This document shows positions 4,807 to 40,832 of a DNA stretch of 46,969 nt, one piece after another; positions within the stretch are counted from its first letter, which is position 1; every line of letters begins with the position of its first letter. Where the stretch lies: NCBI GenBank assembly GCA_008636105.1, contig VSDH01000023.1, positions 1 to 46,969 of the forward strand. The letters are read 5' to 3'. The notes under the pieces were generated by a model. It saw only the letters and a list, made by a program, of their open reading frames with translations, had not been told where the DNA came from and did no database searches. A program made the position numbers and the translations under genes. This stretch comes from Candidatus Scalindua sediminis (GTDB lineage Bacteria > Planctomycetota > Brocadiia > Brocadiales > Scalinduaceae).

Positions 4807-5025
4807 TTGGCAATGCTGAAGGTTAAACCAATTGGCAAAAGACATGATCCAAGTGATGGACCATGCGTTGTCTGTAATAATATTTCCTGGAAAACAATTG
4901 GAAAAAAAAATCAGGGAGTAAATCCAGGTGAGTATTTTCAAAATTATACTTGCAAAGCCTGTGGCATGGAAATTAGAACAATACTTTGGAAATTAAACCA
5001 ATTAGATAATTTTCTTTCAAAATGA
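4807..5025 (+). CDS. zinc-ribbon protein (72 aa)
   Basis: A 72-residue protein with two CxxC knuckles, CVVC and CKAC, about 33 residues apart, typical of a zinc ribbon. TTG 4807 follows GAGAGTGAACTAG at the same distance as in the gene at 5575, which favours TTG over the in-frame ATG at 4813. Function unknown; small zinc ribbons are abundant throughout this element. Confidence 0.55.
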   Translation: MAMLKVKPIGKRHDPSDGPCVVCNNISWKTIGKKNQGVNPGEYFQNYTCKACGMEIRTILWKLNQLDNFLSK

Positions 5026-5044
5026 GCAAGGAATGAACCAAACT

Positions 5045-5536
5045 ATGACAATTAAGACTAAACCAACCCCATTAAAAAGACGCATTCGTAATTGGTTAGA
5101 TCAAGAATCTAAAGAATCTGTGGATATTACACAAAAAGAGACTGATATTTTTCGATTGCGAGTAAATTACAGAACCACCCCCTTATTGATCATCCAACCA
5201 AAAGGGAAACAATCGATAGTTATTGCTGCGCTAATTAGGCTCACTCCAGAACATCTGGAGATAATCAGAAGTTCTCCAAAGGAAGATCGACTCCGAGTTA
5301 TAAAGAATTTAGGAAATTATATTCATGAGCGCCAGTTATACTGTATTTTTCAGTTTGAAAATGAAAAAGAAGTCATTTTTCAACATCTTGTTATAGAAAG
5401 CTCAAATCTCTTTAAAGAGGATCTGACAAAAACGTTATTTTTTCGATATCTTGATTTTGTTCGCTTCGGCCATGTCCTAGTAATAGAAAAGTTTAGATCT
5501 CTGATTGGGGCAGATATTCAAGTTCTGAGTAAGTAG
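5045..5536 (+). CDS. DUF2299-like protein (tentative)
   Basis: A protein of about 163 residues with a first helix RRIRNWLDQE, then beta-strands LRVNYRTTPLLIIQPKGK, IVIAALIRLTPEHLEII and a C-terminal strand HVLVIEKF. This layout reminds me of the archaeal DUF2299 family (about 150 residues, secretion-chaperone-like fold), recognised from the strand pattern only. ATG 5045 fits the AAGGAATGAACCA leader; ATG 5033 lies inside that leader. Confidence 0.45.
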   Translation: MTIKTKPTPLKRRIRNWLDQESKESVDITQKETDIFRLRVNYRTTPLLIIQPKGKQSIVIAALIRLTPEHLEIIRSSPKEDRLRVIKNLGNYIHERQLYCIFQFENEKEVIFQHLVIESSNLFKEDLTKTLFFRYLDFVRFGHVLVIEKFRSLIGADIQVLSK

Positions 5537-5574
5537 AAGAGGAACCCAAACAAAATTGCAAGGAAGTGAACCAG

Positions 5575-5712
5575 TTGGAAGAACAAACAAAACAAGATGA
5601 ATTAACTGAGGATCAAAAGAATATCATGAAATTGGCCGTCATGCAAGGATTTGCTTATTTTCTGATAATTGTACTATTTGGGCTTGTAATTAACCTATAT
5701 CTGAACCAATAA
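5575..5712 (+). CDS. small single-pass membrane protein (45 aa)
   Basis: A 45-residue protein with a hydrophilic N-terminus (MEEQTKQDELTEDQKN) and one transmembrane helix near FAYFLIIVLFGLVINLYL. It is preceded by AAGGAAGTGAACCAG then TTG, the same leader and spacing as the gene at 4807, which is the main evidence that it is expressed. Confidence 0.5.
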   Translation: MEEQTKQDELTEDQKNIMKLAVMQGFAYFLIIVLFGLVINLYLNQ

Positions 5713-5730
5713 GAGCAAGGAGCGAACTAA

Positions 5731-5848
5731 ATGATTAGCGGATTGTGTAAAGTGTGGAGCTAAGAAACTATGGGCTAAATTAGTTTGTGGTAATTGCTGG
5801 GATTTTTTATTTAAGGAAAAAATGAGAAGAAATAGACTAACATTGTAA
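5731..5848 (+). pseudogene. frameshifted zinc-ribbon gene (~39 aa)
   Basis: ATG 5731 follows the operon leader AAGGAGCGAACTAA but reads only ten codons. In the +1 frame, from base 5741, it encodes DCVKCGAKKLWAKLVCGNC and continues to a TAA at 5848: a clean CxxC-x11-CxxC zinc ribbon with no start codon of its own. One extra base among the first four codons (for example in CGG at 5739-5742) explains this. It may be a broken gene, an assembly indel or a +1 recoding site. Confidence 0.45.
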
Positions 5849-5889
5849 GTTGCACAGTATTATAGTTATAACTTAAGGAGTTTTGAATA

Positions 5890-6156
5890 ATGGATGCAGG
5901 CGAGTTTACATGGGATATTCAAGGATGGGCACAGGATGGATTTCATAATTCAGCTCATTCATGGGAATATATGCAACAATTGTTAGAAATTTGTAATCAT
6001 ACAGATGTTTGTTCGGCCTGTAAAGACAATCTCCAAGAGCAACTTCAAAACTATTCCGAAGTCTCTGATATTTTAGAGGATGTCGATTTTTCTAAGAAAG
6101 CTGACTGGATGTGTTTTCAAAAACGTAATAAATCATTGAGTAATTATTTTAAGTAA
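5890..6156 (+). CDS. hypothetical protein with Cys/His motif (88 aa)
   Basis: An 88-residue acidic protein that I do not recognise. The middle has CNHTDVCSACKDNL, a possible zinc-binding Cys/His cluster. AAGGAG precedes the ATG by about 11 bases. It ends just before the promoter of the RAMP operon. Confidence 0.55.
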   Translation: MDAGEFTWDIQGWAQDGFHNSAHSWEYMQQLLEICNHTDVCSACKDNLQEQLQNYSEVSDILEDVDFSKKADWMCFQKRNKSLSNYFK

Positions 6157-6168
6157 TTCGACAAAATC

Positions 6169-6178
6169 TTTATAAATT
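6169..6178 (+). promoter_or_regulatory. TATA box of the RAMP operon
   Basis: TTTATAAATT lies about 41 bases before ATG 6219, the right distance for an archaeal promoter with a short leader. A second AT-rich element (TTTTATAATAA) follows near 6190-6200. Confidence 0.55.
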
Positions 6179-6218
6179 CTTTATACAAATTTTATAATAA
6201 GTCAATGGTGTTTTTATA

Positions 6219-6401
6219 ATGGCATTAAAACAAGAACGGACAACACTAGGGATTACACGACATCAACGAGAAGTATTTGAAAAGCTGAAAGGTATAATGA
6301 TGGAAAAAGAACCGTTAGGTTTTGAACCAGATGCCATTCAAGTCTTTGATATACTATTAAAAAGCTATTTAAAATTAAAAACTGGAAAAGAGACGATTTA
6401 G
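6219..6401 (+). CDS. small helical protein, possible regulator of the RAMP operon
   Basis: A 60-residue protein beginning MALKQERTTLGITRHQRE, with two amphipathic helices (REVFEKLKGIMMEKE and IQVFDILLKSYLKLK). The layout, a short strand then two helices, resembles compact RHH or plasmid-copy-control proteins, but the fit is weak. It is the first gene behind a clear TATA box and is separated from the Cas7-like gene by a 46-base hairpin, so it is probably in the same transcript. Confidence 0.5.
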   Translation: MALKQERTTLGITRHQREVFEKLKGIMMEKEPLGFEPDAIQVFDILLKSYLKLKTGKETI

Positions 6402-6414
6402 AAAAGAACCAATA

Positions 6415-6460
6415 CGAAAAGCACCTAGTTCGGCCACTAACCAAGGCTAGCTGCTTTTCG
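6415..6460 (+). ncRNA. intergenic hairpin upstream of the RAMP pair
   Basis: Arms CGAAAAGCACCTAG (6415-6428) and CTAGCTGCTTTTCG (6447-6460) pair over 13 of 14 positions around an 18-base loop (6429-6446). It fills the gap between the 60-residue gene and the Cas7-like gene. It could be an RNA processing site, an attenuator or a protein-binding site. The following U-run is too weak for an obvious terminator. The RNA call is an inference from pairing. Confidence 0.5.
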
Positions 6461-6476
6461 ACAGGCAGGTAAAAAT

Positions 6477-7319
6477 ATGTCAAGTAAGCATAAAAATCTA
6501 TCGAGTCAAAGAATCATATTAAAAGTCAAGTGTTATACCCCCATTTCTAAACCTTTGAATGGGTCACTTCCACGAAGTAATAATTCACACATGCTACGTT
6601 TATATCCCATCAAATACCAGTATGGGACTGGGAAGGAGAAAAAAGAAGCTGAAACTCAAATTTATTTGATCAAAGGTCTACGAGGGGCAGTTAGACATGC
6701 GGTGATGTGGGTCTGTAAGACCTATGGCATGGAGGTCTGCCATACCACTGATAAACAGGAAGATAAATCGGGTAATAAACTCTTACCGGCAGGCTTTCAT
6801 CTGTTAGCGGCCTGTGCCAAAGAACAAAGCTGTATTGTCCATGAGATCTTTGGTTCCAAAGGAAAAGAAAGTTTGATCGCAGTCTTTGCTGATCCCATCA
6901 CGTCTGTCAACCATAAGACAGCCCAATTTGATCAACAGATTCAAAATGTTCATATTGCAACGGAAAACCGGGTGAATAAAACCTATGACGGCAAAACAGT
7001 GCAAGATTTTGGGGAGCGATATTTTTCCGGGCATTTCAGCTTTGAAATTAATGTCACGCGATGTTCTTCCACTCAAATCGGCTTGCTTATCGAAGCTATT
7101 ATGAATATTGAGAAAATGGGTCGCGGCTACAACTCTGGATATGGGCATGTCTTAGTGGAAGCCTTTCAATTACTGAATCGCACCATCGAACGAAAACCCA
7201 TCTTTGAAACAGATTCAGGGGAGTTTAAAATTCAACAAATAATTGACAATCAACCCCTAAAACAAGAGGTCAAGGATGCCATGAAAGGCTGGGAGAAATA
7301 CCGGGAGCTAGTTGCATGA
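6477..7319 (+). CDS. Cas7-like RAMP protein
   Basis: A 280-residue protein with RAMP (repeat-associated mysterious protein) features closest to Cas7 subunits of the Csf2/Csc2 type. Near the N-terminus comes IYLIKGLRGAVRHAVMW, matching the 'GLRG.lR.a' segment of those families. Then come CHTT and AACAKEQSC cysteine-containing segments in the insertion region, SLIAVFADPI, ENRVNKTYDG, and near the C-terminus MGRGYNSGYGHV, a glycine-rich RAMP loop. Cas7 proteins coat guide RNA in effector complexes. The gene overlaps the next RAMP-like gene by four bases (ATGA). No Cas1, Cas2, Cas3, large subunit or array is nearby. Assignment is by motif; the subtype is uncertain. Confidence 0.6.
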   Translation: MSSKHKNLSSQRIILKVKCYTPISKPLNGSLPRSNNSHMLRLYPIKYQYGTGKEKKEAETQIYLIKGLRGAVRHAVMWVCKTYGMEVCHTTDKQEDKSGNKLLPAGFHLLAACAKEQSCIVHEIFGSKGKESLIAVFADPITSVNHKTAQFDQQIQNVHIATENRVNKTYDGKTVQDFGERYFSGHFSFEINVTRCSSTQIGLLIEAIMNIEKMGRGYNSGYGHVLVEAFQLLNRTIERKPIFETDSGEFKIQQIIDNQPLKQEVKDAMKGWEKYRELVA

Positions 7320-8161
7320 ATTTAACGTTAGAAGGCCAAATCCTCACTCCGATTGTCAGAAAGCGGCCTGAATTTCGGCTCTTTGGGTGTCAAATTCGGA
7401 TTACCAAGATCCGCAGGCGATATTTTACGAAGATTACGGCAAGTAAGCCGATGTATCCCTATGCCTATATTTGTTATTTAGGAAAGATCATAATAAGCTA
7501 TGTCTGCAAGACCGAAACGCAAGCCATGCGGAAATTACAAACTTTAATGGAAATTGAGGCGATAGGTCGATTCCAGTCAGAAGGGATGGGATACATCCAA
7601 TGGCTCAAGGGGTCATTAAAAGCGACTTTTTCGAATGGGTCAGACACTCCAGGGAATACCCAACGCACCTATCGCAAGGTGAAAATTCGGCAGGGATTAC
7701 CGCATAATTTAAGTCCGGCAGTGGAAGAGGTGATACAGCTAGGGATCTTACATGATTTCTTTCAAACGAGCAAACACCGCTCTAAAATTTATGTAGAACC
7801 GCCAATCACGGATCAAATCTTAAGAGAGCGATGTCAACAACATCATGACCACACGGACGACCCGGTGATTGAGAAATTTCGGAAGTATGATCATTTATCG
7901 GCATTAATAACCCGAAAACACCGATCACCCAGATTATCCCGGTATAACTGGAAATCCAGCCGGAAGATTAATTTTAAACAATTAGCGCAAGAAATCGCAG
8001 AGGTATCCACTAGTGTTTACAAACTGTATCGGTATATTTATGAATCCAAAGACTTAGAATTACTTAATGAAAGTTTAGAATTTGGTCATTCGTCATTACG
8101 CCAACATTTATTGATTCTAATCAATTTAATAGTAAATGATTATCAGAAGGAGGTGTTTTAA
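7316..8161 (+). CDS. RAMP-like protein, possibly Cas6- or Cas5-like
   Basis: A 281-residue protein translated from an ATGA overlap with the Cas7-like gene. The first ~110 residues have beta-strand-rich RAMP character, ending IEAIGRFQSEGMGYIQWL, which has the position and shape of the glycine-rich loop of Cas6/Cas5-type RAMPs. The C-terminal ~150 residues are different: helical and His-rich (LGILHDFFQTSKHRSKIY, RCQQHHDHTDDPVI), and I do not recognise them. The histidines could serve catalysis or metal binding. Pairing with a Cas7-like protein suggests a two-component RNA-binding complex; whether it processes RNA cannot be told from the sequence. Confidence 0.5.
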   Translation: MNLTLEGQILTPIVRKRPEFRLFGCQIRITKIRRRYFTKITASKPMYPYAYICYLGKIIISYVCKTETQAMRKLQTLMEIEAIGRFQSEGMGYIQWLKGSLKATFSNGSDTPGNTQRTYRKVKIRQGLPHNLSPAVEEVIQLGILHDFFQTSKHRSKIYVEPPITDQILRERCQQHHDHTDDPVIEKFRKYDHLSALITRKHRSPRLSRYNWKSSRKINFKQLAQEIAEVSTSVYKLYRYIYESKDLELLNESLEFGHSSLRQHLLILINLIVNDYQKEVF

Positions 8162-8415
8162 TGAGCCAAACATTAGATGAGGTTTTTTCATGTGATTGTG
8201 GGCAGAAATTTTGTTATTTTAGACAAACCGGAAAATGTCACTATTTTTTTTGTCCTAATCCTGAATGTCGGAATTGTTTTTATTTGTTTAATGATCAGAT
8301 TGATGATAAAATATCGGATCAACATACCGTTAGGTTCGGAACGGGAAAACTGTCAAATTTTCAACATAAAAAAGCATTAAAACGTGTGGGGAGAACTAAA
8401 GGTGAATTAAAATGA
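8161..8415 (+). CDS. zinc-ribbon protein (84 aa)
   Basis: An 84-residue protein with CDCGQKFCYF near the N-terminus and CPNPECRNCFYLF later, enough cysteines for one or two zinc sites. GGAGGTG precedes it and its ATG overlaps the last base of the RAMP stop codon, so it is likely a third member of the RAMP operon. The C-terminus is basic (HKKALKRVGRTKGELK). Confidence 0.55.
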   Translation: MSQTLDEVFSCDCGQKFCYFRQTGKCHYFFCPNPECRNCFYLFNDQIDDKISDQHTVRFGTGKLSNFQHKKALKRVGRTKGELK

Positions 8416-8672
8416 CCCAAACGGATATTTTAATCTTAGAAACGATAAATGAAATGACAAAAACCGGGAACCTAGAAATAGTGGCTGAAATATACTATTT
8501 AGCTACAACAGAATCGCTTATAACTTTCTACTTCAATGACACATTCACTGAAATGACTGTAACAATCGCTAGGAGAAGGGCTTTAGATATTTCAAATGAA
8601 GTAACATTTAAAATAGTGGGTTCAGTAAAATGCTATAATTTCATCCACTTCATGAAACGAGAGCTGATTTAA
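8412..8672 (+). CDS. hypothetical protein (86 aa)
   Basis: An 86-residue protein, mostly alternating strands and helices, that I do not recognise. It starts at an ATGA overlap with the zinc-ribbon gene and so probably belongs to the same operon. Confidence 0.5.
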   Translation: MTQTDILILETINEMTKTGNLEIVAEIYYLATTESLITFYFNDTFTEMTVTIARRRALDISNEVTFKIVGSVKCYNFIHFMKRELI

Positions 8673-8724
8673 CGGATCGGGTAACAGAAGAATTAATGTT
8701 TTAAAGAGGAAACTGTGGATAATT

Positions 8725-9186
8725 TTGAAAAGTGATGAAAAAATAATAATTGATTCCTTAATAAAAGAAGGATTTGACGTTACTTGGTGTAAGGAATCAT
8801 ATTTAGTTTCTACACCAAATTATCTAGACATTATTTGTGATTTGAAAATAACTGAGAATAAAATTATGTTATCTGATATTAATCGTCTTTCTTTTCCTAG
8901 AATACACAAAATTCTCTCCCAATTTAATGTTACTCTAAAGAAAAATAACGATGCTGCTTCTATTAAAGAAACGAAAGAGTTAAATTATCTTTTACCTATA
9001 ATAATGAACAGCCTTACCTTAGAAGAACGTGATTTTATCGATATTCAAGAATTTAGTAGTAAAAGGATAGATCGAATAAGCAGGGGAACAGGAATCTCTT
9101 CTTTCAGAGTTAAGGAAACACTGGGATTATTAATACTTGTGAATCAAAGAAAATCAAAGATTATCTATTATTTTCAAGAAATATGA
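8725..9186 (+). CDS. hypothetical protein with probable HTH C-terminus
   Basis: A 153-residue protein. The C-terminal part (FSSKRIDRISRGTGISSFRVKETLG) has a helix-turn-helix-like pattern (RISRGTGISSFRVKETL), so DNA binding is possible. Starts at TTG with AGAGGA 16-20 bases upstream, so the start is uncertain. The stop overlaps the next ATG by ATGA. Confidence 0.45.
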   Translation: MKSDEKIIIDSLIKEGFDVTWCKESYLVSTPNYLDIICDLKITENKIMLSDINRLSFPRIHKILSQFNVTLKKNNDAASIKETKELNYLLPIIMNSLTLEERDFIDIQEFSSKRIDRISRGTGISSFRVKETLGLLILVNQRKSKIIYYFQEI

Positions 9187-9698
9187 CTACTTCGGTGAAT
9201 GAATTGCCTGAAATATTAGACGATGATTCTGAAAAATGTTCATACTGCAAAGCAATCAAGAAAATTAATGAAGTGTGTCAAAATTGTTCAGAATTTAAAG
9301 CCGAAATATTACAAATGGATAATATCAGGTTAGCGCTGGAAAATCAGCAACTTAAGGCACAGATTAAGGCACAGAATACAAAATTAAACAAGCAATTAAT
9401 TGATAACCAGGAACAGCAATCAGTTTTGACAACCCCACTACGAGATTTAATAAGGAACGAAGCAAGAGAAGCACGCATTATAGCAATGAGACAATGTTTC
9501 ATCGACTTTTCAGAAGAGTTTGAGATTGTGAAAGCTCTATTAGCCATGAATTGTCGTCCGAAAGAGATAGGCGATTTGTATAATCATTATCTTAGTCGTT
9601 TCATAGAACAGGGTGTCAAAACGAAATTAACAGCTAAAAGAATTAATACAATTAAGATTGAGATTCTGAAACAGCAATACCAACGAAAAGTCGAGTGA
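9183..9698 (+). CDS. zinc-knuckle and coiled-coil protein (171 aa)
   Basis: A 171-residue protein. The N-terminal zinc site (CSYC and CQNC, 12 residues apart) is followed by a long coiled coil rich in Gln, Leu and Lys (LENQQLKAQIKAQNTKL). A C-terminal helical region (MNCRPKEIGDLYNHYLS) has an HTH-like look. It starts on an ATGA overlap. Function unknown. Confidence 0.55.
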   Translation: MTTSVNELPEILDDDSEKCSYCKAIKKINEVCQNCSEFKAEILQMDNIRLALENQQLKAQIKAQNTKLNKQLIDNQEQQSVLTTPLRDLIRNEAREARIIAMRQCFIDFSEEFEIVKALLAMNCRPKEIGDLYNHYLSRFIEQGVKTKLTAKRINTIKIEILKQQYQRKVE

Positions 9699-9702
9699 TA
9701 AA

Positions 9703-10011
9703 ATGCAAGAAGAACGAAAATTCTGCCTGTATTGTAAACAAGCGTTGAATTTGGATGGAAACGACTTTCATGCAGAATGTGAAAAGGAGATTCAAGAATA
9801 TCAATCAACCCTTTTAATGAAAGGAATTCCTTTTGATCTTAATGATTTTACGAAATTTTTAGTTACTAGGGATACCAATCAACGTCCACAAGTTTTAATG
9901 GTAACGGGTGTTTCTGGAATGGGGAAGTCAGCCGTAAATTTTATGTTGATAAGTAATTACTTAAAAGAAAAAGGTTTTACACTTAATCAAATCAAAGAGA
10001 TGTATAAATAA
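9703..10011 (+). CDS. small zinc-finger protein with a stand-alone P-loop-like motif
   Basis: A 102-residue protein: FCLYCKQALNLDGNDFHAEC is a Cys/His zinc finger, and about 60 residues later comes VTGVSGMGKSAV, an exact Walker A pattern (GxxGxGKS). Only about 35 residues follow, so there is no Walker B, sensor or fold large enough for a normal P-loop ATPase. Either the protein is truncated or the motif is part of something else. GAGTGAT precedes the ATG. Confidence 0.5.
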   Translation: MQEERKFCLYCKQALNLDGNDFHAECEKEIQEYQSTLLMKGIPFDLNDFTKFLVTRDTNQRPQVLMVTGVSGMGKSAVNFMLISNYLKEKGFTLNQIKEMYK

Positions 10012-10012
10012 G

Positions 10013-10213
10013 ATGTCAACAGAATTCTTAAGAGAATTAGTGGAAAAACGCTATAAAATTAGAAATAATTTAGACAATGCAAGAATTAAATTAAACGAAG
10101 GCATTCCTGCGTTGTATGAGGTGAATAAACAATTACGAAAGATCCTAAACGATGAAAAAGAAAAATTAGAAGGCAGTTATGAAAAATACTTACCTTCTAA
10201 TCTAAAAGAATAG
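10013..10213 (+). CDS. small coiled-coil protein (66 aa)
   Basis: A 66-residue helical, lysine-rich protein starting one base after the previous stop. It is the last gene of the left-hand + strand operons, and the structured intergenic region follows. Function unknown. Confidence 0.5.
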   Translation: MSTEFLRELVEKRYKIRNNLDNARIKLNEGIPALYEVNKQLRKILNDEKEKLEGSYEKYLPSNLKE

Positions 10214-10337
10214 TGCTATAATTTATTAACTAGAGGTTAATAGGATATTAATTGCACTACAAAAAGTGATGTGATTCCGTTGTTTTCTAAGTGTAGCTAT
10301 AAAGGGCTGATAGATAACGTAATAGGTTCACACGCTA

Positions 10338-10435
10338 GCCCCCCGTCCAGCGCATTACAAGGCATGTATCTTGGAGTTGCCTTGTCGGGGCAACTTTAAG
10401 ATACATATATAAGATAATGCGCTGAGTCGGGGGGC
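10338..10435. other. 98-nt nested hairpin between convergent genes
   Basis: The outer stem is GCCCCCCG (10338-10345) with CGGGGGGC (10428-10435), continued after a small internal loop by CAGCGCATTA (10348-10357) with TAATGCGCTG (10415-10424). The inner stem is ATGTATCTT (10364-10372) with AAGATACAT (10398-10406), then AGTTGCC (10375-10381) with GGCAACT (10389-10395) and a 7-base loop. That is 34 perfect pairs in 98 bases. An alternative pairing of CAAGGCA (10358-10364) with TGCCTTG (10378-10384) competes with the inner stem. The 387-base region (10214-10600) has no gene. Candidates are a replication origin or cruciform, a stable RNA, or a bidirectional terminator. Confidence 0.6.
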
Positions 10436-10529
10436 ATGCAATAAAACTGTTTCGGGCACGAAAATAGACCTCCAAAATTATGTATAACTTATGGTTATTT
10501 AGGGAAAAGAGGGGTTAGAAAGTAGGAAA

Positions 10530-10600: not shown

Positions 10601-13600
10601 TTAGGGAATAATATACGGTGGGGGGTGGTCCTTCATAAATAGTTCTTGCTCTAAACTGGAGGGATCTAGAAATAACATTTCCGGGTTAGGTATTTCAAGC
10701 CATTTATCGAGAATTTGTTCTAATATTGGGGTAAATTTGTTTTTAAATTCCTTAAAAGGCTTGATAGCTTTTTTCATTTCTTCAGTATTGAAATCGTTAA
10801 TACAATCATGAATAAATTCGGTATAAAGATCTAATAGATCATAATAATCTTTGAGTAGAATTTTAGAGAAACTAAACATAGTAATTTCTACTCTAAGAAT
10901 GGTTTCATCGAATTCAATGGATTTACTCCGATCAATACCTTTGATAAGATTGGCTTTATCATTTTTGGTAAATCGGGCGAGTTTGTTGATAAATTGGCGT
11001 TGATTTTTGATGTAAGTATGGATTGCGCTTTTGTTGGCTAAATTCTTGAAAGTAAAACCCTCTGATTCCGAATGTTTGTTTAATTTGAGAGAGCGAATGA
11101 GTTCTGCAATCTGGTTGGAATTTTGGGATTCAAAGGTCTTATTATTCCGTAATTGATCGGTGATCTGGAAGACTTGATTTTCTAATATCTTTAAGGTGTC
11201 GGGTGTTAAATTGGTGTGGATATTGTTTGTGATAGCGAGCGTTCGGAGGTTATAGCGTAAATGTTCAAGCGATTTTTTGAGACTGGTATAACACAGAATC
11301 ATATAAGTTGATTCCAAAGCATAATCTTTGGCTTGTTTTTCTTTAATATCCTTTACAGTGAGTGAGGCTTTATTGGTAAAGAATTTAAGAATTTGGTCTT
11401 TATGGGAGGAATAATAATTAATGGCTTTTAAAATGAGTTCTTTAATGATCCATGTATCTTTGTTAATCTCATTAATGGTGGTGTTGAAGAGATCAAGGTT
11501 GTATAATCCTCTGGACGTGGGATTGACCCGAATTTCTGCATTAAAGGAGAAATTTTCCAGTTGTCGAATGAGGTTGGATTCGCCAACCATGACTTTAATG
11601 CGGAGCGTGGCATTGATATTAGCGGGATCTTTTTGTTTAGAGACTAGTTCAAAGCAAAATTCTCGATTCATCCATTTGCCTGTCCAAAAACCTTTGGCTT
11701 TAATGAGTTTCATTTTATACAGGAATTTTTCAGGATTTTTGACCAGATAACCTTTAATCTGTGATTGATAGGTTTCTTCCAAGTGTTTTTTGCTTACTTG
11801 ATAGTCAATTTCTTTTTTGGTCAGGCTCATCAATAGTTCGGATTCGGGGATAAATTGATCATAGGCGATGGATGACCAATATTGCCGAATGCGAAAAGGC
11901 ACAACAATATCCCGGCCTTCTTTCCCAATTGGATATTCTTCAGATTTTTTGGTTAATAGGTCTTCCACCTTTTCTTTGCGTTTTAAATAATTATTTTTAT
12001 GGCGGGTTTCGTAATAAATACGGCTGTAAATATACGCAAACATTTGAATGGATTGGGAATAAAAGTAAGTTTGTCGGGCTTGCAGGTGTGTGGTGAAATC
12101 AAGCCGGGGAAGAATGCAGGTCGCTCCAATGTTCCAGCCATCCACATTGATTTGACGATTAAAATCTACTCGTAAATCAATAGATTTGTCATGAATGACC
12201 TTTTTTAATTTAATTGGTTCCATAATGAGATATTCAGTTTGAGTGCGAAGAGATTTGGCGGATTTTTTGACATCTAAGGAAAAATATTTGTTGTCATATT
12301 GACAGAGTTGAAGAATTCGTTTTCTAACTTCAGGCAGTTCTTCTAATAAGGTTAAATATTCGGAGGATTCAATCCGTTCATATTCCTGTTCTATGAGGTT
12401 TTTATCATAAATTTCGGACAGACCTTTTTTCCACCATTTAACCCCCCGTTGGAGAGGCATTTTTTGATCTAAATAGGTTAGAAAATCTGTGTAAGTGGTT
12501 AATTCTTGAAAATAAATTTCATCCCAAAGATATTCGTAAAAGTGTTCAACATTAATGGGGGTCTTGACGTTGAATACTTTGGCTATTAATTTAAGAAATT
12601 GCACACGCATTTTATTTGCCAAGGAGACATTATTGGCATACGTTTGATAGAGTTCACCGAAAGCAGAAAATTCAATTTCTTGCTCTGATTCATCATAACG
12701 AGCGAATACCTCTTCAAACCCTTCTAAAAAATCTAGCCACATTTGCTGAGTTTTGTTTGTTTTGATTGGTTTCACCATAAAAGGTAGAATTCGATCTTTT
12801 GACATCTGAGCGATTAAATCATCTGCTAATTCATGGAAACGCCCTTTAATATCGGCACAAATCCAAAAAACCACGTTTTGAAAAATAAAGTAATCCCCAA
12901 AAGTGCCTTTGGTGATGGTGTCGACATTGGTGAGCAGGAAACGGCGTGGGATTAATTTGGTTTTGTATTCAGCTTCACAACAGGGGGTGATTTGTTTGTG
13001 TTTTTTCCGATAAATTTTCTTTTTACCATTAGCCGAATGAATGTCAAGAACGGTGCGAAGATATTTTTTTAATACAATGGTTTTTAGTTTCGGATGTTCT
13101 TTATCACATGTTTGACAAATAAAAATCTTTGTTTTGGGTTGTTCATAGATAAGGATCTCTAAGTCGTTCCAATGATAGGAGCCGCGATATAATTCGGGTC
13201 TTTTGAGGGCTTTGATGCCCCGAATACGGCCATCTTTATCTTTTTTATAGGTTAATTGACTCCAATATTTAAAATCCGGGAGTAAATGAGACACAATTTC
13301 GGAAGGGCTTTTCTTTTGGAACAGGAGAGAATACATTCCTTGAAAAAAGGGATCAATATCCCCTGCATGAGATCCAATACCGTGTTTTTTGGCATAAATT
13401 TGATATTTTGCACCATTCCAGTATTTGAGGCCGTATTTCTTTTTGCCTAAATAATAACCGTCCGGAATATATTGAATGTTAACCCCATCAATCCGATCAA
13501 AGGCTACGTCTTCCTCATATTCTAAAGGCATGATGTCATCAAAAATGGTGCGGATTTTTTCATGTGTTTCAATGGTGGTAAGAGCTTGAAATCCATCGGT

Positions 13601-15904
13601 ATCATTATTAAGATTTAAAGCTCCGTGATGTTTATACATGAGTTTAGCATATTTGGTGAGAAAGCGAGAGACCCCGGTGATGGAAGAGGAAACACAGTAA
13701 AGTTGGAAAACGCCTTCATAATCTTTGGAATTACCTTCTGCTGTAATCCCAAAGGCAGTGTTTCCAATAAATTTACAGAGTTGAGGTTTCGAGTGATGTT
13801 TCCCATACTTGCGTTCAAATTTCATCCGAATATTAAATAATTTGGTGAAAAATTCGGAACCCCGTTCCCCTACTTCCGGCAGATCCATGCATTCGGCTTT
13901 TAGAAATTTAATCTTGTGTTTAATCTTTTGACCGGGATGGGTAAATAAATATTGTAAAACTGAGATCGCTAAATCAGTTAAATGGCAGGTAATAGTGGAA
14001 CTGCCTTTGATAATCACTTCAGTTTTTTTGGTGTTATGAGTGCGTCTAAACTGTAAATCTAAGGAGGGATCAATCTCAACAGTGGCATTCCCATCTAAAG
14101 GTTGAAAAAAATTTTTGTCAAAGAGTTCTAAGGGTTGTTTTAAGCGCTGAATGATGGTCCTCCAGAAATTAGACCGGATTTGATCTACATCATTATTCAA
14201 ATAATTTTGGAGTTTACCCTGGGCTGCTAATTGTAATTTGAGTTCTGCATGAATAAGCCATGCCGCATGCGGATATTGGTTTCGAAAGTCTAAATAGGCA
14301 ATCAGTTTTTTGTGTAAGGCAAAATCGTTTAAAATGCCTTCTTTCAGCCATAAGGTGTATGACTCAATGAGTTCCTCAATGGTAAAGTCATCACTTTCAA
14401 CATGCTTAGCCACTTCACAATCAGCGGCTCCTCCCATAAAGGTTGTTCGAAAGTTTTTGAAATGTTCTCGTGAGCGTTTCAGGTTATCGATGATTTCTTT
14501 TTCTGATAAGCCGAGTTTATGGCTCAGATCAGCTAAAATGAGTTTTTTGGGAAACGAACTGGACGAATAAATTTTGGTTGCAAAGGGAACATTAGTATTA
14601 GTAAACAGGGGGATTTGGAGTTCTTGGGCAATTTCAGAGATGTCTAGATGATCGGTAAGCATGGCATACACTGAGAGGGTGGCCATACAATCCATGATGT
14701 TATAGCGCCATTTGTCCGAGATCTGGTTACCATTCACGAGTTGCATATCTTCGGGGGTGAAATTTTTTTCCTCGTCCAGTTGAATTTTTGGATAGGGCAG
14801 ATCCTTGGACAGGGCTTCTAAGCTGAGTTTTTTAAAACGTCCTGCTTCGGCTAAAATGAGGGTGTCTACCCCATAAACATTACTAAAGCTGCTGGCTTGA
14901 TAGGGGGCCAGTGTGATATAGGGCATGCCTTTCCAATTAAATCGGGTATTGGAATTGGCGGCAAACCGAAAACCAGCTTTGGTATTGCCACATTTGAGTT
15001 TATAACCTTCAAACTGGTTTTTCTTAATCTCAATAAATTCCAGTTCAAAGTCTTTAACGACTCCAAAAGGCGTGCGTTGACCTCGTTTGGGTTTGTGAAG
15101 GGCATTGAGCTTGGGAATGTCATACCCGTTGTTATGGCAAATCCACAATGATTTGCGAATGTTGAGGAGAATATCAATTAATAAATCCCGGTTGAGGGGA
15201 ATTTTAACCGCGGCGACTTGATTGTAAATGGAGATTAGATCTTCATGACCTTGCATCAGAGCCGATATCATGATCGTGCCCAGAGTGTTTTCATAATCGG
15301 CTACTAGATTTGCGCCCCAGAGGTTTTGATTTCGGAGACGAATGACATGCCAATTCTCTTTGGTTTTCCAGATTGTGTATGAGAGATTTGGGTCATTAGG
15401 ATCGTAATAAGCGGATACAATGCGTTTGGCTTCGTAATTAATGGCTGTGTTGAGAACCGTTTGACTTTTGGTATTGGCTTCGGTGTCAAAGGCAACATGA
15501 TTGTAATCAAATTTACCTTCTAAAGTAGAGTTAAAGGTTAGGGACGCTTTTAAGGAAAAACCGATATCAATAAGTTCAAGGAATTCTTTAATGCGGGTGT
15601 TGTTTTCCTGAATAAGGGCTAGCAGGTTGTCAATTTGCTGAAGCGCACTATTAGACCTGACCACCCCTTTGATCTCCTGATTCATCATTTTAGGAAGTGT
15701 AAATTTTTCTTTTAGGCGATGCTCACCCGATAATAGGACTTTTTTGAGGGATTCTTTGGTGTCATGGTTAGCTCCTTGTAATAATTGGGCAAAACCCCGT
15801 TCTTCTAGAAATTCCTCGGTGCTAGTGTCATCGCCAAATATATCTTGCATTGATAGGTCTTTATTGTTGCTAGATTCCGTGCCAAAAAGAGTTTTTTCGT
15901 CCAT
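10601..15904 (-). CDS. giant family B DNA polymerase
   Basis: A 1767-residue replicative-type DNA polymerase. All exonuclease and polymerase motifs are visible: Exo I FDTEA (D140, E142), Exo II HNNGYD (~260), Exo III YNIMD (~402), motif A DFRNQYP (~543), motif B KFIGNTAFG (~716), motif C NDTDG (~770) and KKKYG (~822). The style of motifs A and C recalls the protein-primed subfamily of archaeal viruses, but the length is about twice that of most members. The ~900-residue C-terminal extension starts with a possible zinc site (CQTC, then PCC) and is otherwise unrecognised. The N-terminus has MDEKTLFG and KDLSMQDIFGDD, similar to PCNA-binding peptides. ATG 15904 follows AAGGTATTGATTAAAC. A terminal-protein function inside the extension is possible but not shown. 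Confidence 0.85.
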   Translation of the reverse strand: MDEKTLFGTESSNNKDLSMQDIFGDDTSTEEFLEERGFAQLLQGANHDTKESLKKVLLSGEHRLKEKFTLPKMMNQEIKGVVRSNSALQQIDNLLALIQENNTRIKEFLELIDIGFSLKASLTFNSTLEGKFDYNHVAFDTEANTKSQTVLNTAINYEAKRIVSAYYDPNDPNLSYTIWKTKENWHVIRLRNQNLWGANLVADYENTLGTIMISALMQGHEDLISIYNQVAAVKIPLNRDLLIDILLNIRKSLWICHNNGYDIPKLNALHKPKRGQRTPFGVVKDFELEFIEIKKNQFEGYKLKCGNTKAGFRFAANSNTRFNWKGMPYITLAPYQASSFSNVYGVDTLILAEAGRFKKLSLEALSKDLPYPKIQLDEEKNFTPEDMQLVNGNQISDKWRYNIMDCMATLSVYAMLTDHLDISEIAQELQIPLFTNTNVPFATKIYSSSSFPKKLILADLSHKLGLSEKEIIDNLKRSREHFKNFRTTFMGGAADCEVAKHVESDDFTIEELIESYTLWLKEGILNDFALHKKLIAYLDFRNQYPHAAWLIHAELKLQLAAQGKLQNYLNNDVDQIRSNFWRTIIQRLKQPLELFDKNFFQPLDGNATVEIDPSLDLQFRRTHNTKKTEVIIKGSSTITCHLTDLAISVLQYLFTHPGQKIKHKIKFLKAECMDLPEVGERGSEFFTKLFNIRMKFERKYGKHHSKPQLCKFIGNTAFGITAEGNSKDYEGVFQLYCVSSSITGVSRFLTKYAKLMYKHHGALNLNNDTDGFQALTTIETHEKIRTIFDDIMPLEYEEDVAFDRIDGVNIQYIPDGYYLGKKKYGLKYWNGAKYQIYAKKHGIGSHAGDIDPFFQGMYSLLFQKKSPSEIVSHLLPDFKYWSQLTYKKDKDGRIRGIKALKRPELYRGSYHWNDLEILIYEQPKTKIFICQTCDKEHPKLKTIVLKKYLRTVLDIHSANGKKKIYRKKHKQITPCCEAEYKTKLIPRRFLLTNVDTITKGTFGDYFIFQNVVFWICADIKGRFHELADDLIAQMSKDRILPFMVKPIKTNKTQQMWLDFLEGFEEVFARYDESEQEIEFSAFGELYQTYANNVSLANKMRVQFLKLIAKVFNVKTPINVEHFYEYLWDEIYFQELTTYTDFLTYLDQKMPLQRGVKWWKKGLSEIYDKNLIEQEYERIESSEYLTLLEELPEVRKRILQLCQYDNKYFSLDVKKSAKSLRTQTEYLIMEPIKLKKVIHDKSIDLRVDFNRQINVDGWNIGATCILPRLDFTTHLQARQTYFYSQSIQMFAYIYSRIYYETRHKNNYLKRKEKVEDLLTKKSEEYPIGKEGRDIVVPFRIRQYWSSIAYDQFIPESELLMSLTKKEIDYQVSKKHLEETYQSQIKGYLVKNPEKFLYKMKLIKAKGFWTGKWMNREFCFELVSKQKDPANINATLRIKVMVGESNLIRQLENFSFNAEIRVNPTSRGLYNLDLFNTTINEINKDTWIIKELILKAINYYSSHKDQILKFFTNKASLTVKDIKEKQAKDYALESTYMILCYTSLKKSLEHLRYNLRTLAITNNIHTNLTPDTLKILENQVFQITDQLRNNKTFESQNSNQIAELIRSLKLNKHSESEGFTFKNLANKSAIHTYIKNQRQFINKLARFTKNDKANLIKGIDRSKSIEFDETILRVEITMFSFSKILLKDYYDLLDLYTEFIHDCINDFNTEEMKKAIKPFKEFKNKFTPILEQILDKWLEIPNPEMLFLDPSSLEQELFMKDHPPPYIIP

Positions 15905-18978: not shown

Positions 18979-19044
18979 AAGAGAAGCGATTTAAGGTTGA
19001 GTGTTAAAAATACCCTTTTTCTAGTATTCACAGAAGTGAGAGAC

Positions 19045-19920
19045 ATGAAACAAGTAATCATTTTATTGATAATGATTTTGGCATTCTCAACCATAAGTGT
19101 AAAGAGTTCTTCAGACGTTTCCTTGGATTCCGCGCGGGTGGTTCAGGATTCGGTAAAGCAATATTCTTTTTTAGTGGATATAGATGATCGAGAAACTGAA
19201 GTAACTATTTATTTGAATGATCCCCTAGTAGCAAAACGTCCTGTAATATTGAATATTACAGGTTTAACAGAATGGGGTGGGGTGTTGAAAGATGTGGATG
19301 TTTATGCGTTTTTTAGTAATCATACAGAAGCGTTTGAATTTTCGAATCTTGTTTATTTGAGTTGGCAATTTCGATCATTGCAGTTCGGACTTGATCGTTT
19401 TAGTGTGGGTGGGGATTATTATTTGTTTATAGAATTACGGGAAACGGTGTTCTTTAGTGTAAAGATCATTGGAAATTATACAACGCCCGTGTTTCAGGTT
19501 CAGGATCGGGAAAAAGTAGAATATCAATTTGATATTGAGTCGCAAATAGAACAGGGAACAAAGTATGCGTTTTATTTAAGTGCTTCAGATCCTTATGGGG
19601 AACAATTCGTTGTATCACAATTCCAATTTCAGAAAACGGATTCAAATATTCAGCAATTTTTGGATTTTGAAGAGCTAAATGCCTCTAGTTGGCGGCTTGA
19701 TTTTGAAACCAAGGATTTAGCTGTTGGAAAGTATAATTATTCATTTGTTCTTCGGACAATAGATGCATGGTTATATTTTTGGGTGGAATATTTGACAATT
19801 ACAGGGGAGTTTGTGGTTCAAGAACCGCTGTTAGGCACAGGGTTTGAATTAGGGATTGTATTAGTTGGATTGATGGTGCTTATGATAAAGCGATGTAAAA
19901 GGGAAAAAGCAAGGAAATAA
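19045..19920 (+). CDS. secreted, membrane-anchored surface protein (copy 1)
   Basis: A 291-residue protein with a signal peptide (MKQVIILLIMILAFSTISV), an ectodomain rich in beta-strands and N-glycosylation sites (NIT, NHT, NYT, NAS), and a C-terminal helix GFELGIVLVGLMVLMI followed by a basic tail. It is paralogous along its length to the protein encoded at 39939-40832 on the other strand; for example both contain VQDSVKQYSFLV and SDPYGEQFVVSQFQFQKTDS. The layout is that of archaeal surface or virion-envelope proteins. ATG 19045 has AAGTGAGAGA upstream. Function unknown; host attachment or exclusion are options. Confidence 0.65.
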   Translation: MKQVIILLIMILAFSTISVKSSSDVSLDSARVVQDSVKQYSFLVDIDDRETEVTIYLNDPLVAKRPVILNITGLTEWGGVLKDVDVYAFFSNHTEAFEFSNLVYLSWQFRSLQFGLDRFSVGGDYYLFIELRETVFFSVKIIGNYTTPVFQVQDREKVEYQFDIESQIEQGTKYAFYLSASDPYGEQFVVSQFQFQKTDSNIQQFLDFEELNASSWRLDFETKDLAVGKYNYSFVLRTIDAWLYFWVEYLTITGEFVVQEPLLGTGFELGIVLVGLMVLMIKRCKREKARK

Positions 19921-28814: not shown

Positions 28815-28985
28815 ATGAATTATATGACTAGTGGCTCAGGGGAAAAGTTGGCAGATAGGCTAGGGTGGGATATGTCCCTAAATGTTAAACAAGTCGCTCT
28901 TCAAGTGAATGACGTTTCATTTGATGCGATTTCGGTGTATTTTGTTTTTAATAGGATTATTTTCCAAGAGTTGAGTAAATCATGA
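28815..28985 (+). CDS. small hypothetical protein (56 aa)
   Basis: A 56-residue frame (MNYMTSGSGEKLADRL) between the ATPase and the spike gene, whose ATG overlaps its stop. A run of 17 A precedes it and makes the upstream part of the frame meaningless lysines. Weak evidence; it may only carry the spike's ribosome binding region. Confidence 0.3.
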   Translation: MNYMTSGSGEKLADRLGWDMSLNVKQVALQVNDVSFDAISVYFVFNRIIFQELSKS

Positions 28986-31900
28986 GAAAAATCGCTTTAA
29001 TTATAATTATCGTTTTAGGAATTTCAATAATTTCAAATTTAAGTTTAGATCAAGATCAAGATCAAGATCAAGATCAAGATCAAGATCAAGATCAAGATCA
29101 AGATGAAAATATTAAGACAGATCATAGTGAAGTGATAGAACCGGATGAATTTGTCCCAGAACCGGAGGTAATACAATCTGTGGTAGAACCAAAAGCTGTA
29201 TCATCTTTTTGGGAATCCCGTGAAAATGTTAGAGTAGATTATGCTAGTCAAAATAAAACGACTAAACAGCTTGATATTGTTGAATCCGATCTTGCATATC
29301 AATCGGTATTTGATGCTACTAGTGATGGGGCTGATGACATTTATGGTATTTATGTCGACAAGGGAAGGAACATCTGGTTGGCAGATACTTATAGTGGTAA
29401 TGGCTGGATTATGCAATATGATAGCTCAGGCACTTTTATCCAAAAATGGGGTGTAGGGAATACTCAACCTGTTGGGCTATTTGTAGATCGATCTGATTAT
29501 GTGTATGTCGCTGAGGTTGCTAATGATTCTGTAGCAAAATATTCTTATGCAGGAGTATTACAATTATCTATTGTTGGCTTAGCTGATCCTTTCGATGTGG
29601 TAGTAGATTCTTCTGGAAATATTTTTATTGCCGAAGATGGCGTAGGTCATAAACATATTCATAAGTATGATTCTACGGGAACATTGGTTACTACTTTTGG
29701 AGGTGGTTCTTATAATAGAGCCTTATGTTTTGATAGAGATGAAATAATCTATGCGATAGATGCAGGAGGTTCATGGGAAATAGAAATGTGGACAACGGCC
29801 GGTGCTTCAGCTGGAACATTGGCAAGTTTCTCAGATAGTGGGGAATATAATTTAGGCCAATTTCCTAGTTCTTGTGCAGTAGATGCTAAAGGTAATGTTT
29901 ATATCGGTTCTTATTCTGCTGCAACGGGAATCCAAGTAGTAGATAAAGATGGGAATTGGGTGACAAGGATTGATGATTATCTAAATGCTACCGGTCATCC
30001 TATTAATTTCGGCGATGCATTAACGGTTGGTGCATCAGCAGATGGTAAAATAATTATAGCTAATGTTTATAGTGAAGAATTGGCTATATTTGAAACTATA
30101 CCTATACATTCTAATTATGCAGGAGAATTACCATTAATTGACGATGGGGAAGATGTAGTTTTTACTATAGATACAGGCATAGAGATACCTGTAATATCTA
30201 GAGAATACAAATTCACGATGTTTGATACTCCTGATCCAGCGTCAGGAGGAATAAAATTTTCTTGGTATGGGGCTGGTTCTGGTCTCTATGACCAAATTAT
30301 AGATTCAACCTTAGAATTGACAAGTATTCCTGCTAATTATGGTGGATCAGAATTAATTTTAACTTTGACACTAAGAGCTACCCGAGCTGGTTTAGTTTCT
30401 GAATTAAAACTATTCGATACACTAAATAATGTTTATTTAACCGATACGGATACAAGTGCTATTGCTTGGAATGCCGCTTATTCCTTTTATTTCGTATTTG
30501 TAGATTTTGTTTGGGTAGAATCTACAGAATATACCAGTCAAATTAAATCTGAACAGCGTTATAAAGATTTTGGAATATTTGAACATAAAATAGAATTTTT
30601 TGTGCCGGATTATAGAACAGAAGTAACTATTTATGCCCCTTTGTCATGGAATTATACTAGTATAGAACCTAGTGCTACTGTAGCACTTACTAGTAATAAT
30701 TATGTTGTAACTAATACATTACCTGTTATTTATACCGTTAGATTTGCAAGTGGTGTTGGTTTTGGTCGGGATTATACCAGACAAAAACAAATTCTCGCTA
30801 TTGATGATAAATCAGAAGACTATCTTTCAAATATAGGATTTGAAACCGGGTGGCAGGAGGATTGGGGAGTAGTAAATCATGATTATTGGAGTAAAAGTTT
30901 GAATTCATCTATTGTTCATTCTGGTATTAATTCATTAAGGTTAGAAAGTGCTTCAAGTCTTCCGGGTGGTGAGGCTGATCTTGATAATTCTCCAAATAGT
31001 TTGCCAAACGGAGAATATTATGTATCATTCGATTTTTATCGTGAGACTTCAGGTTGGATTTCTTTTTATAATTGGAATGGTGCATGGTCTAATGATCCTT
31101 TAGATACAACAATTGGTCGTTGGATACATTATAGTGCTTTTATAGAAATTGATGGAACATCAGCAGGACAAAATGTTATTATTTTAACTACTGCAACAGA
31201 TCAAGTAATTTTTATTGATAATTATAAAATATTTAAAGCCAATCCAGAAATTAAGACAACTAGTAGTAGTGAAAGCACTATTACTGCTCAGTTCAATTAT
31301 TGGACATCTTATGGGCTTTTTCCAGCCAATAATGAGAATGCCACTTTGCAGATTAGAGATAGGACAGCTAATACTTTAGTGGATTCTTATTCTGTGGATA
31401 CTGATGTTAATGGTGAAATTACTTGGATTTGGAAGGGTGTTTTACAAGAAAAAGAATATGAATTGAGGGCTACTGCTTGGGATTCATATTGGAATAGCAT
31501 TTCACAATCTTCAGAAGTATTTGATGAATTAAGTGAATTTTCTTGTGGTGGTTCGTGTGCAGCGTATGCAGAAGCTATTGAAACGTCTAATGTCAAAACT
31601 GGAGATGATGCTGTTCACGTTTATGATTGGACAGAAGATGTTAGATATATTAATATCAATCCAGCTGAAATTGGAGATTTTGACTTAACAAAAGCTGATT
31701 ATTTTTATTTTGATCTATATTCACCAGAGGATACTGGTTATATTACTCAATTCTTATTTCGTGATGGTGGTGGTGATTATTTTGCTTGGCAACCAGATAC
31801 AAGTTATGAAATAGGCTGGAATACAATTACTTTATCAACAGATACCAGTTTAGTTTGGATAGAAGTTGGCACTGCGGTAGGTGAAACGAATAATTTCTAT

Positions 31901-39938: not shown

Positions 39939-40832
39939 CTAGTCTTGTAATAGGCGATGTTTGGGATACCAAATAACTAATACCATTAATCCAATTAATA
40001 AAATCTCCAATTCAAACCCTGTACTTAACAACGGTGTTTGAACCTCAAACACCCCTGTGATTGTCAAATGTTCAGCCCAACTCCAATATGACCATGTATC
40101 GATAGTATTAATCACGAAGGAATAGTTATACTCTCCCACAGCTAAATCCGCAGTGTCAAAATTTAACACCCAACTAGATCCATTGACATTAACATCGTTA
40201 AAATCTAAAGATTGTTGAATATTTGAATCGGTTTTCTGAAATTGGAATTGTGATACAACGAATTGTTCCCCATAAGGATCTGAAGTATTTAAATAAAACG
40301 CATAATTTGCTCCCTGTTCTATTTGCGACTCCATATCAAATTGATAGTCTGCTTTGGCCCGATCCTGAACCTGAAACACAGGCGTGGTATAATTCCCAAT
40401 CATCTCATGTCCTCCGAAAAATCCATATTCAATCAATTCCACAAACAAGTAATACTCACCTGCAACCCTAAAACGATCAGAACCATAATAATCTGGTTGA
40501 AATTGTCGATAATAATAATCAACGTCAAAATCAAACGCTTCGGTATGATTACTAAAATATACGCCCACATGAACGACCCTGAATGATTGAAGCATCCCTA
40601 CCCAATCGGCTAATCCTGTAATATTTAATGAAATAGGACGTCTAGCTATTAATGGATCATTTATACGAATTATTACTTCAGTTTCTTGTTCATCTATCTC
40701 CACTAAAAAAGAATATTGTTTGACCGAATCCTGAACCAAGTGCACTGAATCCCACGAAATGTCCGAAGAACTTTTTGCACCCGCGGTTGAGAATAGCAAT
40801 AACATTACCAATAAAATGAATGATCGTTTCAT
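39939..40832 (-). CDS. secreted, membrane-anchored surface protein (copy 2)
   Basis: A 297-residue paralogue of the protein at 19045-19920, in opposite orientation. Signal peptide (FILLVMLLLFSTAGAKSSS), N-glycosylation sites and C-terminal anchor GFELEILLIGLMVLVIW. DNA similarity is still visible, for example in the stretch coding YQFDMESQIEQG (YQFDIESQIEQG in copy 1). Copy 2 has small insertions around residues 85-120. GGTGAGTAAG precedes the ATG. Confidence 0.65.
   Translation of the reverse strand: MKRSFILLVMLLLFSTAGAKSSSDISWDSVHLVQDSVKQYSFLVEIDEQETEVIIRINDPLIARRPISLNITGLADWVGMLQSFRVVHVGVYFSNHTEAFDFDVDYYYRQFQPDYYGSDRFRVAGEYYLFVELIEYGFFGGHEMIGNYTTPVFQVQDRAKADYQFDMESQIEQGANYAFYLNTSDPYGEQFVVSQFQFQKTDSNIQQSLDFNDVNVNGSSWVLNFDTADLAVGEYNYSFVINTIDTWSYWSWAEHLTITGVFEVQTPLLSTGFELEILLIGLMVLVIWYPKHRLLQD

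Follow-up and report, generated by a model that had tools for sequence, protein, structure and literature searches.

A predicted Cas7-like and Cas5-HD gene pair on a contig assigned to Candidatus Scalindua sediminis and the conserved RNAs encoded with its Asgard relatives

We analysed the whole of contig VSDH01000023.1 (46,969 nucleotides, here called the window), assigned to Candidatus Scalindua sediminis in assembly GCA_008636105.1, and within it a cassette of two overlapping genes of the RAMP type (here denoted RAMP1 and RAMP2). By published descriptions the pair appears to belong to ARAMP, a known array-less family of Asgard archaea, and two RAMPs with no other cas genes are not new in themselves. 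What we regard as new, in a comparison that the founding ARAMP paper lies outside, is an RNA encoded with the pair, the predicted Cas5-HD architecture, the insertion pattern of the family and a likely extrachromosomal copy. Each of three sub-families of relatives is equipped with a conserved, covarying RNA of its own, located at the 3' end of RAMP2 or overlapping it, and a likely counterpart lies in the window. We propose, with a probability of about 0.5, that the window cassette encodes a DNA nuclease guided by RNA, the guide being the sequence that directly follows the RNA at its 3' end, and that members of the family home into fixed sites.

The RAMP gene pair and its family

The original prediction, made from the letters of the sequence, described two translation-coupled genes with RAMP motifs; both open reading frames (ORFs) are found at that place with the motifs it quoted, overlapping by 4 nt (Table 1). 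RAMP1 matches the Pfam RAMPs family with an E-value of 2.7e-4, just below the cut-off, and PADLOC Csm3 with an E-value of 1.3e-8. Pfam, PADLOC and NCBIfam gave no significant match for RAMP2, and a PDB sequence search returned chance matches only. The predicted fold of RAMP1 is Cas7-like, nearest to RAMPs of type VII, IV and III complexes, and that of RAMP2 joins a Cas5-like RAMP domain to an HD domain nearest to that of Csm1/Cas10. A RAMP fold, whose absence had been put forward as refutation, is predicted for both proteins, and these confident predictions agree with the module of a Cas7-like protein and a second RAMP that had been proposed, the second being a putative fusion of a Cas5-like and an HD domain. 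The unusual His-rich C-terminal half remarked on earlier is present; by predicted fold it is an HD-nuclease-like domain, which had been missed. One related RAMP2 matched Pfam HD with an E-value of 0.013, below the cut-off, and was not used as proof. Neither window ORF is interrupted, and both align from end to end with their relatives, the putative HD residues included.

Protein searches yielded 148 homologues of RAMP1 and 30 of RAMP2 at an E-value of at most 1e-3. Among the matches listed (120 of the 148 for RAMP1), every row of either protein that names an organism names an Asgard lineage, and viral contigs searched with RAMP1 as a single sequence and as a 27-row alignment gave no relatives. 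RAMP1 was matched in 14 of 227 Asgard genomes, with up to 10 copies per genome, whereas the bin holding the window (G000) was alone among 392 genomes of its own phylum. Scanning of GTDB contigs yielded 15 related loci (L002-L016). As the original prediction had advised, the pair was sought in related contigs: RAMP2 adjoins RAMP1 in 37 of the 41 related loci holding RAMP1, one of which (L058) has the two 1.5 kb apart. Of the four loci without a neighbouring RAMP2, three have RAMP1 less than 1 kb from the contig end on that side. The homologue counts and the recurrent adjacency confirm that the gene pair is more than chance. The relatives form three sub-families, split by context: clade 1, the window type (Hodarchaeota, B3_Heim and one Borrarchaeum locus), clade 2 (Borrarchaeum) and clade 3 (eight genomes).

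ARAMP (Asgard RAMP; Makarova et al. 2020, CRISPR J 3:156, as cited in PMC8730458 and PMC12669027) is described in those two articles as array-less, with Cas5 and Cas7, extra nucleases, a distinct Cas1 in most but not all loci and an "enigmatic" mechanism. Likewise, a Cas7-type and a Cas5-type RAMP occur here together, with an Asgard distribution and no array in the stretches scanned. With regard to Cas1, a helicase/Cas1-cluster gene lies nearby in 12 of 43 related loci (a count that omits L065, which entered the cluster via another helicase), Pfam detects the Cas1 domain in L013, L016 and the L058 copy, and none is in the window. The ARAMP passages of the two articles mention no RNA, Cas5-HD fusion, gene-start insertion or likely extrachromosomal copy, and no RNA co-encoded with ARAMP came up in the literature searched, to which the founding 2020 paper does not belong. 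HRAMP (haloarchaeal RAMP) is similar in being array-less, with Cas5 and Cas7 homologues and nucleases (PMC8730458), and differs in host group, a comparison made by description and not by sequence. Type IV-C systems share Cas7 and Cas5 homologues, a C-terminal Cas10-related HD domain predicted to cut DNA, and mobile elements as carriers (PMC8730458, PMC12669027); by the same descriptions they have arrays, Cas11 and an HD domain on Csf1, whereas here the predicted HD domain is on a RAMP-fold protein and no array was found. Type VII and type III effectors, which supply the nearest folds for RAMP1 (together with type IV) and for the HD domain, differ from the present loci, where there is no array and neither Cas14 nor a Cas10 polymerase domain was seen beside the pair.

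The window lacks the guide-supplying array of canonical class 1 CRISPR-Cas: no CRISPR-like array was found in it among the 20 largest repeat families or by further array scans, and 6-kb stretches of L003, L009 and L012 showed none beside the RAMP genes. The sole Cas1 found in bin G000 is on another contig, as is the one array of the bin that we examined, none of whose 18 spacers matches the window by more than 14 nt, a length no greater than chance would give. The absence of other cas genes and of an array, stressed in the original prediction, holds for the window; as regards cas genes it does not extend to the 12 related loci with a helicase/Cas1-cluster gene. Its suggestion that the complex borrows host crRNAs found no support, and we set host CRISPR guides aside, given a window with no array and spacers of the one array examined that do not match; interference with host CRISPR was likewise unsupported.

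Conserved RNAs at the 3' end of RAMP2

The clade-2 RNA is an element of ~120 nt present in dispersed Borrarchaeum copies, often both in the RAMP1-RAMP2 interval and after RAMP2, and in the pairs of copies checked DNA similarity ends within about 10 nt of the RNA end. Folding of 22 copies gave 26 pairs, 11 of them with both-side changes. In the two Borrarchaeum genomes there are 27 and 22 RNA copies versus 10 and 4 RAMP1 genes, and seven other genomes searched, bin G000 included, have none. The biggest cluster among the loci examined has four copies around one RAMP2 (L058:1299-3017, B. yapensis).

A model of the clade-2 RNA (R1) did not find it in the window or in clade-1 loci. Two weak R1 matches in clade 3 (E-values 0.1 and 0.96) pointed at the 3' end of RAMP2, which is overlapped there by a differently written element: synonymous-codon identity is 0.82-0.89 versus 0.515 overall, while amino-acid identity drops to 0.27-0.41. 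Such constraint is clear in clade 3 only, and not in clades 1 and 2. In 14 copies of the clade-3 RNA, 6 of 20 pairs have both-side changes, 94.9 % of cells are paired versus 89.2 % in shuffled alignments, and the covariation score is 0.20 versus 0.12 (0/500 shuffles), in a structure derived from the very alignment on which it was tested; slid versions fall to 32-39 % paired.

The clade-1 RNA has a third form and lies within 30 nt downstream of the RAMP2 stop codon in the five chromosomal loci holding it (L002-L006). A model of its core (R2), built from five clade-1 sequences with the window excluded, gave 14 matches in 8 of the 227 Asgard genomes, comprising the five training loci and nine others, and some copies (e.g. 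L124 and L128) have no RAMP matches within ~1.5 kb. Rfam returned no match at the RNAs of the window, three clade-2, two clade-1 and two clade-3 loci; elsewhere in those loci it gave two weak matches (E-values 0.44 and 0.19). L006 and L128 also share a similar sequence, TCTCAGACTGGGACGGTGTC...CATCATTGA, 3' of the clade-1 RNA, which may be another non-coding RNA gene.

In the window, R2 matched 10267-10334 of the + strand with 26.7 bits (E-value 7e-4, filters off), the runner-up scoring 15.1 bits; the best score in 88 kb of other Asgard DNA, also with filters off, was 18.1 bits. An R2 genome search of bin G000 gave nothing. When the window was added to the clade-1 alignment, 11 of 15 pairs had both-side changes, 80 % of cells were paired versus 65.9 % when shuffled, and the covariation score was 0.50 versus 0.25, a value reached by 0/500 shuffles, the alignment being fitted to R2 so that these counts lean towards the model; slid partners lowered every measure. 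The region 10262-10445 as a whole folds with -83.1 kcal/mol (z -9.0), and the RNA retains stems P1 and P2 and an unusually stable second hairpin. This RNA is likely the partner of the window RAMP pair. The model match sets the order of the window element as P60 (the 60-aa ORF), RAMP1, RAMP2, six small ORFs and the RNA, a rearranged cassette in which ~2 kb of other genes separate RAMP2 from the RNA.

The original prediction had also considered that the pair binds a non-CRISPR RNA such as the hairpin 5' of RAMP1 (6413-6458). A conserved RNA element is indeed encoded; the likely partner is 2.1 kb downstream of RAMP2 and not the adjacent hairpin, which by eye has no counterpart 5' of RAMP1 in L002-L006 and was set aside (folding energy -19.5 kcal/mol, z -2.9 to -3.6). 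We also rejected a regular-expression match at 8565, which is absent from the R2 matches. The 20-mer 3' of the window RNA has no exact match in viral contigs, and in the ORF list no + strand ORF of at least 50 aa starts within 400 nt 3' of the RNA. The rearrangement and the lack of a nearby downstream ORF suggest that the window copy may serve inter-element competition rather than homing.

RNA ends, host gene starts and possible modes of action

In clades 1 and 3 the 3' end of the RNA frequently lies right before a host gene start, with a spacing of mostly 5 nt (range 0-8). Scoring the start codon of an ORF of at least 60 aa within 15 nt downstream of the RNA end, with boundaries taken from motifs read off the alignments, we found abutment in 4 of 7 clade-1 loci and 11 of 21 clade-3 loci (7 of the 11 at EF-2) versus 1394 of 15200 random positions; clade 2 gave 1 of 10. 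Repeating the count from model ends at 30 loci found with the clade-3 model (R3), a set that shares sites with the previous one, gave 12 of 28 scorable loci versus 535 of 6000 random positions. The other two loci were too short to score, and L147 and L148, whose model ends stop ~11 nt before the apparent end of the RNA, are counted as misses.

Pfam analysis of 15 downstream proteins named EF-2, S19e, replication factor C (RFC), RLI/ABCE1, Rpb7, Snf7, PfkB, M20 peptidase, an E2-like enzyme, DUF6320, HAD and PCC, and gave no match for three (L150, L124 and L002). The S19e, RFC, Snf7 and DUF6320 sites recur in two or three genomes apiece, the extra copies being recognised by their matching protein starts. 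The E2 ubiquitin-conjugating-enzyme-like gene (L149:816-1493, G450) lies 7 nt 3' of a clade-3 RNA, with no RAMP match within 1.5 kb upstream. Four flanks resemble tRNA ends by eye, two as 5' ends and two as 3' ends in antisense; L067, L069 and L076, home to three of the four, gave no tRNA prediction with ARAGORN.

The Rpb7 (rpoE) site, matched in seven of nine genomes, occurs in occupied, solo and empty states. Two genomes carry the RAMP pair with the RNA (G452 and G454), one has the RNA and a broken RAMP2 without any RAMP1 match (G449), and two have the RNA with no RAMP matches (G448 and G456, the latter with 347 nt upstream covered); the gene start is untouched in G450 and G455. In the five RNA-bearing alleles the first codon is ATT, 5 nt past the RNA end, and the start codon is displaced. 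Over the first ten codons, conservation is high when RAMP-bearing genomes are compared with empty ones, and poor in the two solo genomes. It is also high between the two empty genomes, which gives no support to the idea that the element brings about a special conservation of the putative guide region. This codon comparison neither proves nor excludes guiding.

A CRISPR RNA (crRNA) consists of repeat hairpin, handle and guide, in this order. The ARAMP RNA follows the same order: after a scaffold come a last hairpin, a short conserved tail and then variable sequence. This variable part often coincides with the beginning of the host gene itself, as a homing guide would require. From these features we infer RNA binding, guide identity, DNA cleavage and mobility, as follows. 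Transcription of the RNA would run on past its 3' end into the DNA next to it; the scaffold tail would be held by the Cas5-like domain, and Cas7-like subunits would line the flank-derived guide. The HD domain would then cut DNA matching the guide, in an empty allele or a rival element, and the cassette would be copied when the cut is repaired from the occupied allele. Weighing against homing, the RNA tail could also serve as a ribosome-binding site for the downstream gene. We hold homing at about even odds owing to this, to the undecided Rpb7 comparison and to an activity deduced rather than observed.

In a rival reading the RNA is a 5'-UTR riboregulator or leader, bound by the complex to control the downstream host gene or its own expression (self-regulation or toxin-antitoxin-like addiction), with no guide. 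The position of the RNA 0-8 nt before the start codons of many genes would suit it, as would the clade-3 tail, which we take to be Shine-Dalgarno-like, and the clade-2 copies in the RAMP1-RAMP2 interval. However, the downstream genes are unrelated and differ between copies, 9 of 10 clade-2 copies have no gene start at the 3' end, and four flanks are tRNA-like by eye, albeit with no ARAGORN prediction in the three loci tested; we consider this reading quite unlikely. A defence or inter-element competition module, in which the complex turns its own RNA or short RNAs against viruses and plasmids and the multiple copies reflect duplication of defence islands, with no homing, seems to us somewhat unlikely. 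HRAMP is called a distinct defence system in the relevant passages of PMC8730458 and PMC12669027, and the window copy is on a likely extrachromosomal contig; on the other hand, protein-less RNA copies, placement at essential-gene starts and coexisting occupied and empty states are unexpected for a defence island. Finally, the window cassette could be a captured, domesticated or decaying remnant whose RNA is a relic and whose proteins act on an unrelated RNA or not at all. The distance of ~2.1 kb between RNA and RAMP2, the modest 26.7 bits and a RAMP2 in pieces in one relative (L113) agree with decay, but the two intact window ORFs with their putative HD residues, and the retained P1, P2 and stable second hairpin, make it improbable.

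In OMEGA systems (TnpB or IscB with omegaRNA), a non-coding RNA lies at or overlaps the 3' end of the nuclease gene, the RNA 3' end is the element boundary, and solo RNAs occur. The relatives likewise have a structured RNA at the 3' end of the putative nuclease gene that ends at the element boundary, the window RNA being 2.1 kb off. OMEGA effectors are single RuvC/HNH proteins, whereas here two proteins of class 1 type, with RAMP and HD folds, are predicted; a guide taken from the flank would, by analogy, be common to both. Returning to homing, we tentatively suggest, at rather less than even odds, a class 1 counterpart of OMEGA: Cas7 with Cas5-HD and one terminal guide RNA, the guide being taken from the 5' end of the host gene that it fronts, would home into essential-gene starts and tRNA ends of Asgard archaea, one such element having been captured by an extrachromosomal element. 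Insertions in front of the Asgard EF-2, Rpb7, RFC, S19e, ABCE1 and Snf7 genes would thereby be explained. Should the flanking gene serve as guide, class 1 effectors would gain an OMEGA-like mobile relative, bearing on the origin of class 1 CRISPR, and the pair could offer a compact two-protein DNA-targeting complex; such elements could resemble array-less, guide-at-boundary ancestors of class 1 effectors, or a return to that lifestyle. ARAMP has been termed enigmatic in the descriptions cited above, having Cas5 and Cas7 with no array and hence no known guide source, and the co-encoded RNA is a concrete candidate guide that gives it a testable mechanism.

Other features of the cassette, its relatives and the contig

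The TATA-like box, 60-residue gene, hairpin and zinc-ribbon gene (the 84-aa Cys-rich ORF) named in the original prediction are all present (Table 1). Many related loci have a small ORF divergent from RAMP1, regulator-like by eye, to which P60 shows no sequence relation. GC content is 0.43 at 7001-8000, versus 0.30 in the following kilobase and 0.34 at 5001-6000.

Table 1. Coordinates of the window cassette
Feature	Position	Strand	Basis or remark
TATA-like box CTTTATAAATTC	6168..6179	+	Upstream of the 60-aa gene; consensus only, read directly
60-aa ORF (P60), possible small regulator	6219..6401	+	ORF list
Hairpin of the original prediction	6413..6458	.	In the P60-RAMP1 interval; not seen to be related to the conserved non-coding RNA
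RAMP1 (gene 1), Cas7-like backbone protein, 280 aa	6477..7319	+	Pfam, PADLOC, homologues, predicted fold
RAMP2 (gene 2), 281 aa, predicted Cas5-like RAMP domain and Cas10-type HD domain	7316..8161	+	Homologues, predicted fold
RAMP2 predicted RAMP domain, Cas5-like	aa 1-119, about 7316-7672	+	Predicted fold
RAMP2 Cas10-type HD domain	aa 132-281, about 7709-8158	+	Predicted fold
84-aa Cys-rich ORF, possible cargo	8161..8415	+	No homologue in L002-L016
Five more small ORFs (86, 153, 171, 102 and 66 aa), possible cargo	8412..10213	+	Co-directional, in the interval from RAMP2 to the non-coding RNA
Likely ARAMP non-coding RNA core, clade-1 type	10267..10334	+	Stems P1 and P2; CCGTTG and AAAGGGCTGA motifs; model match
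Long second hairpin of the non-coding RNA, 98 nt	10338..10435	+	Counterpart of the CCCC...GGGG hairpin after the core in L002-L004

In Borrarchaeum, giant proteins that join a DEAD/DEAH helicase to a Cas1 domain at the C-terminus are encoded beside the RAMP pair (L013:5569-9660, L016:5617-9627 and the L058 copy), Pfam Cas1 matching with E-values of 3.9e-9 in L013 and 1e-7 in L016, and also in the L058 copy. The helicase-Cas1 gene is split or partial in L009 and L008 and has BLAST relatives in L007 and L056. The C-terminus of the clade-1 giant protein matches the Borrarchaeum Cas1 domain by profile comparison alone (95.6 %, E-value 1.2e-8); Pfam Cas1 gave no match in the clade-1 giants of L002, L010 and L006, nor in the second half of the split L009 gene. 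A protein of ~530 aa, divergent from RAMP1, occurs in 14 loci, all clade 3 (e.g. L062:9187-10800), and the two tested match Pfam LAGLIDADG_3 at or just under the cut-off (E-values 1.4e-4 and 1.7e-4). L002, L004, L005, L006 and L010 have two small genes 5' of RAMP1 (146-247 and 234-247 aa), the first being VSR/DUF559-type nuclease-like by eye, with no Pfam match in the one tested. TnpB/OrfB-like ORFs were seen by eye some kb from the pair (L003:3254-4447; L012, ~2.4-0.8 kb before RAMP1), and no transposase recurs beside it.

Bin G000 does not appear to be of the Asgard phylum, and the window contig may be a mis-binned Asgard element. Its gene content and its being one whole contig make it likely extrachromosomal. 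Elsewhere in the window, a 1767-aa ORF (10601-15904, - strand) has no Pfam match; from its DTDG motif it may be a divergent family B DNA polymerase. Positions 18997-19920 and 39939-40832 are inverted copies, ~20 kb apart, of a secreted-looking gene of ~300 aa, 75-94 % alike in blocks. A GIY-YIG nuclease ORF (44444-45037, Pfam E-value 4.3e-12) is a second possible homing-type nuclease on the contig, and a putative surface protein of 1905 aa (28982-34699) has an (AGATCA)n tract near its start that encodes a QD repeat.

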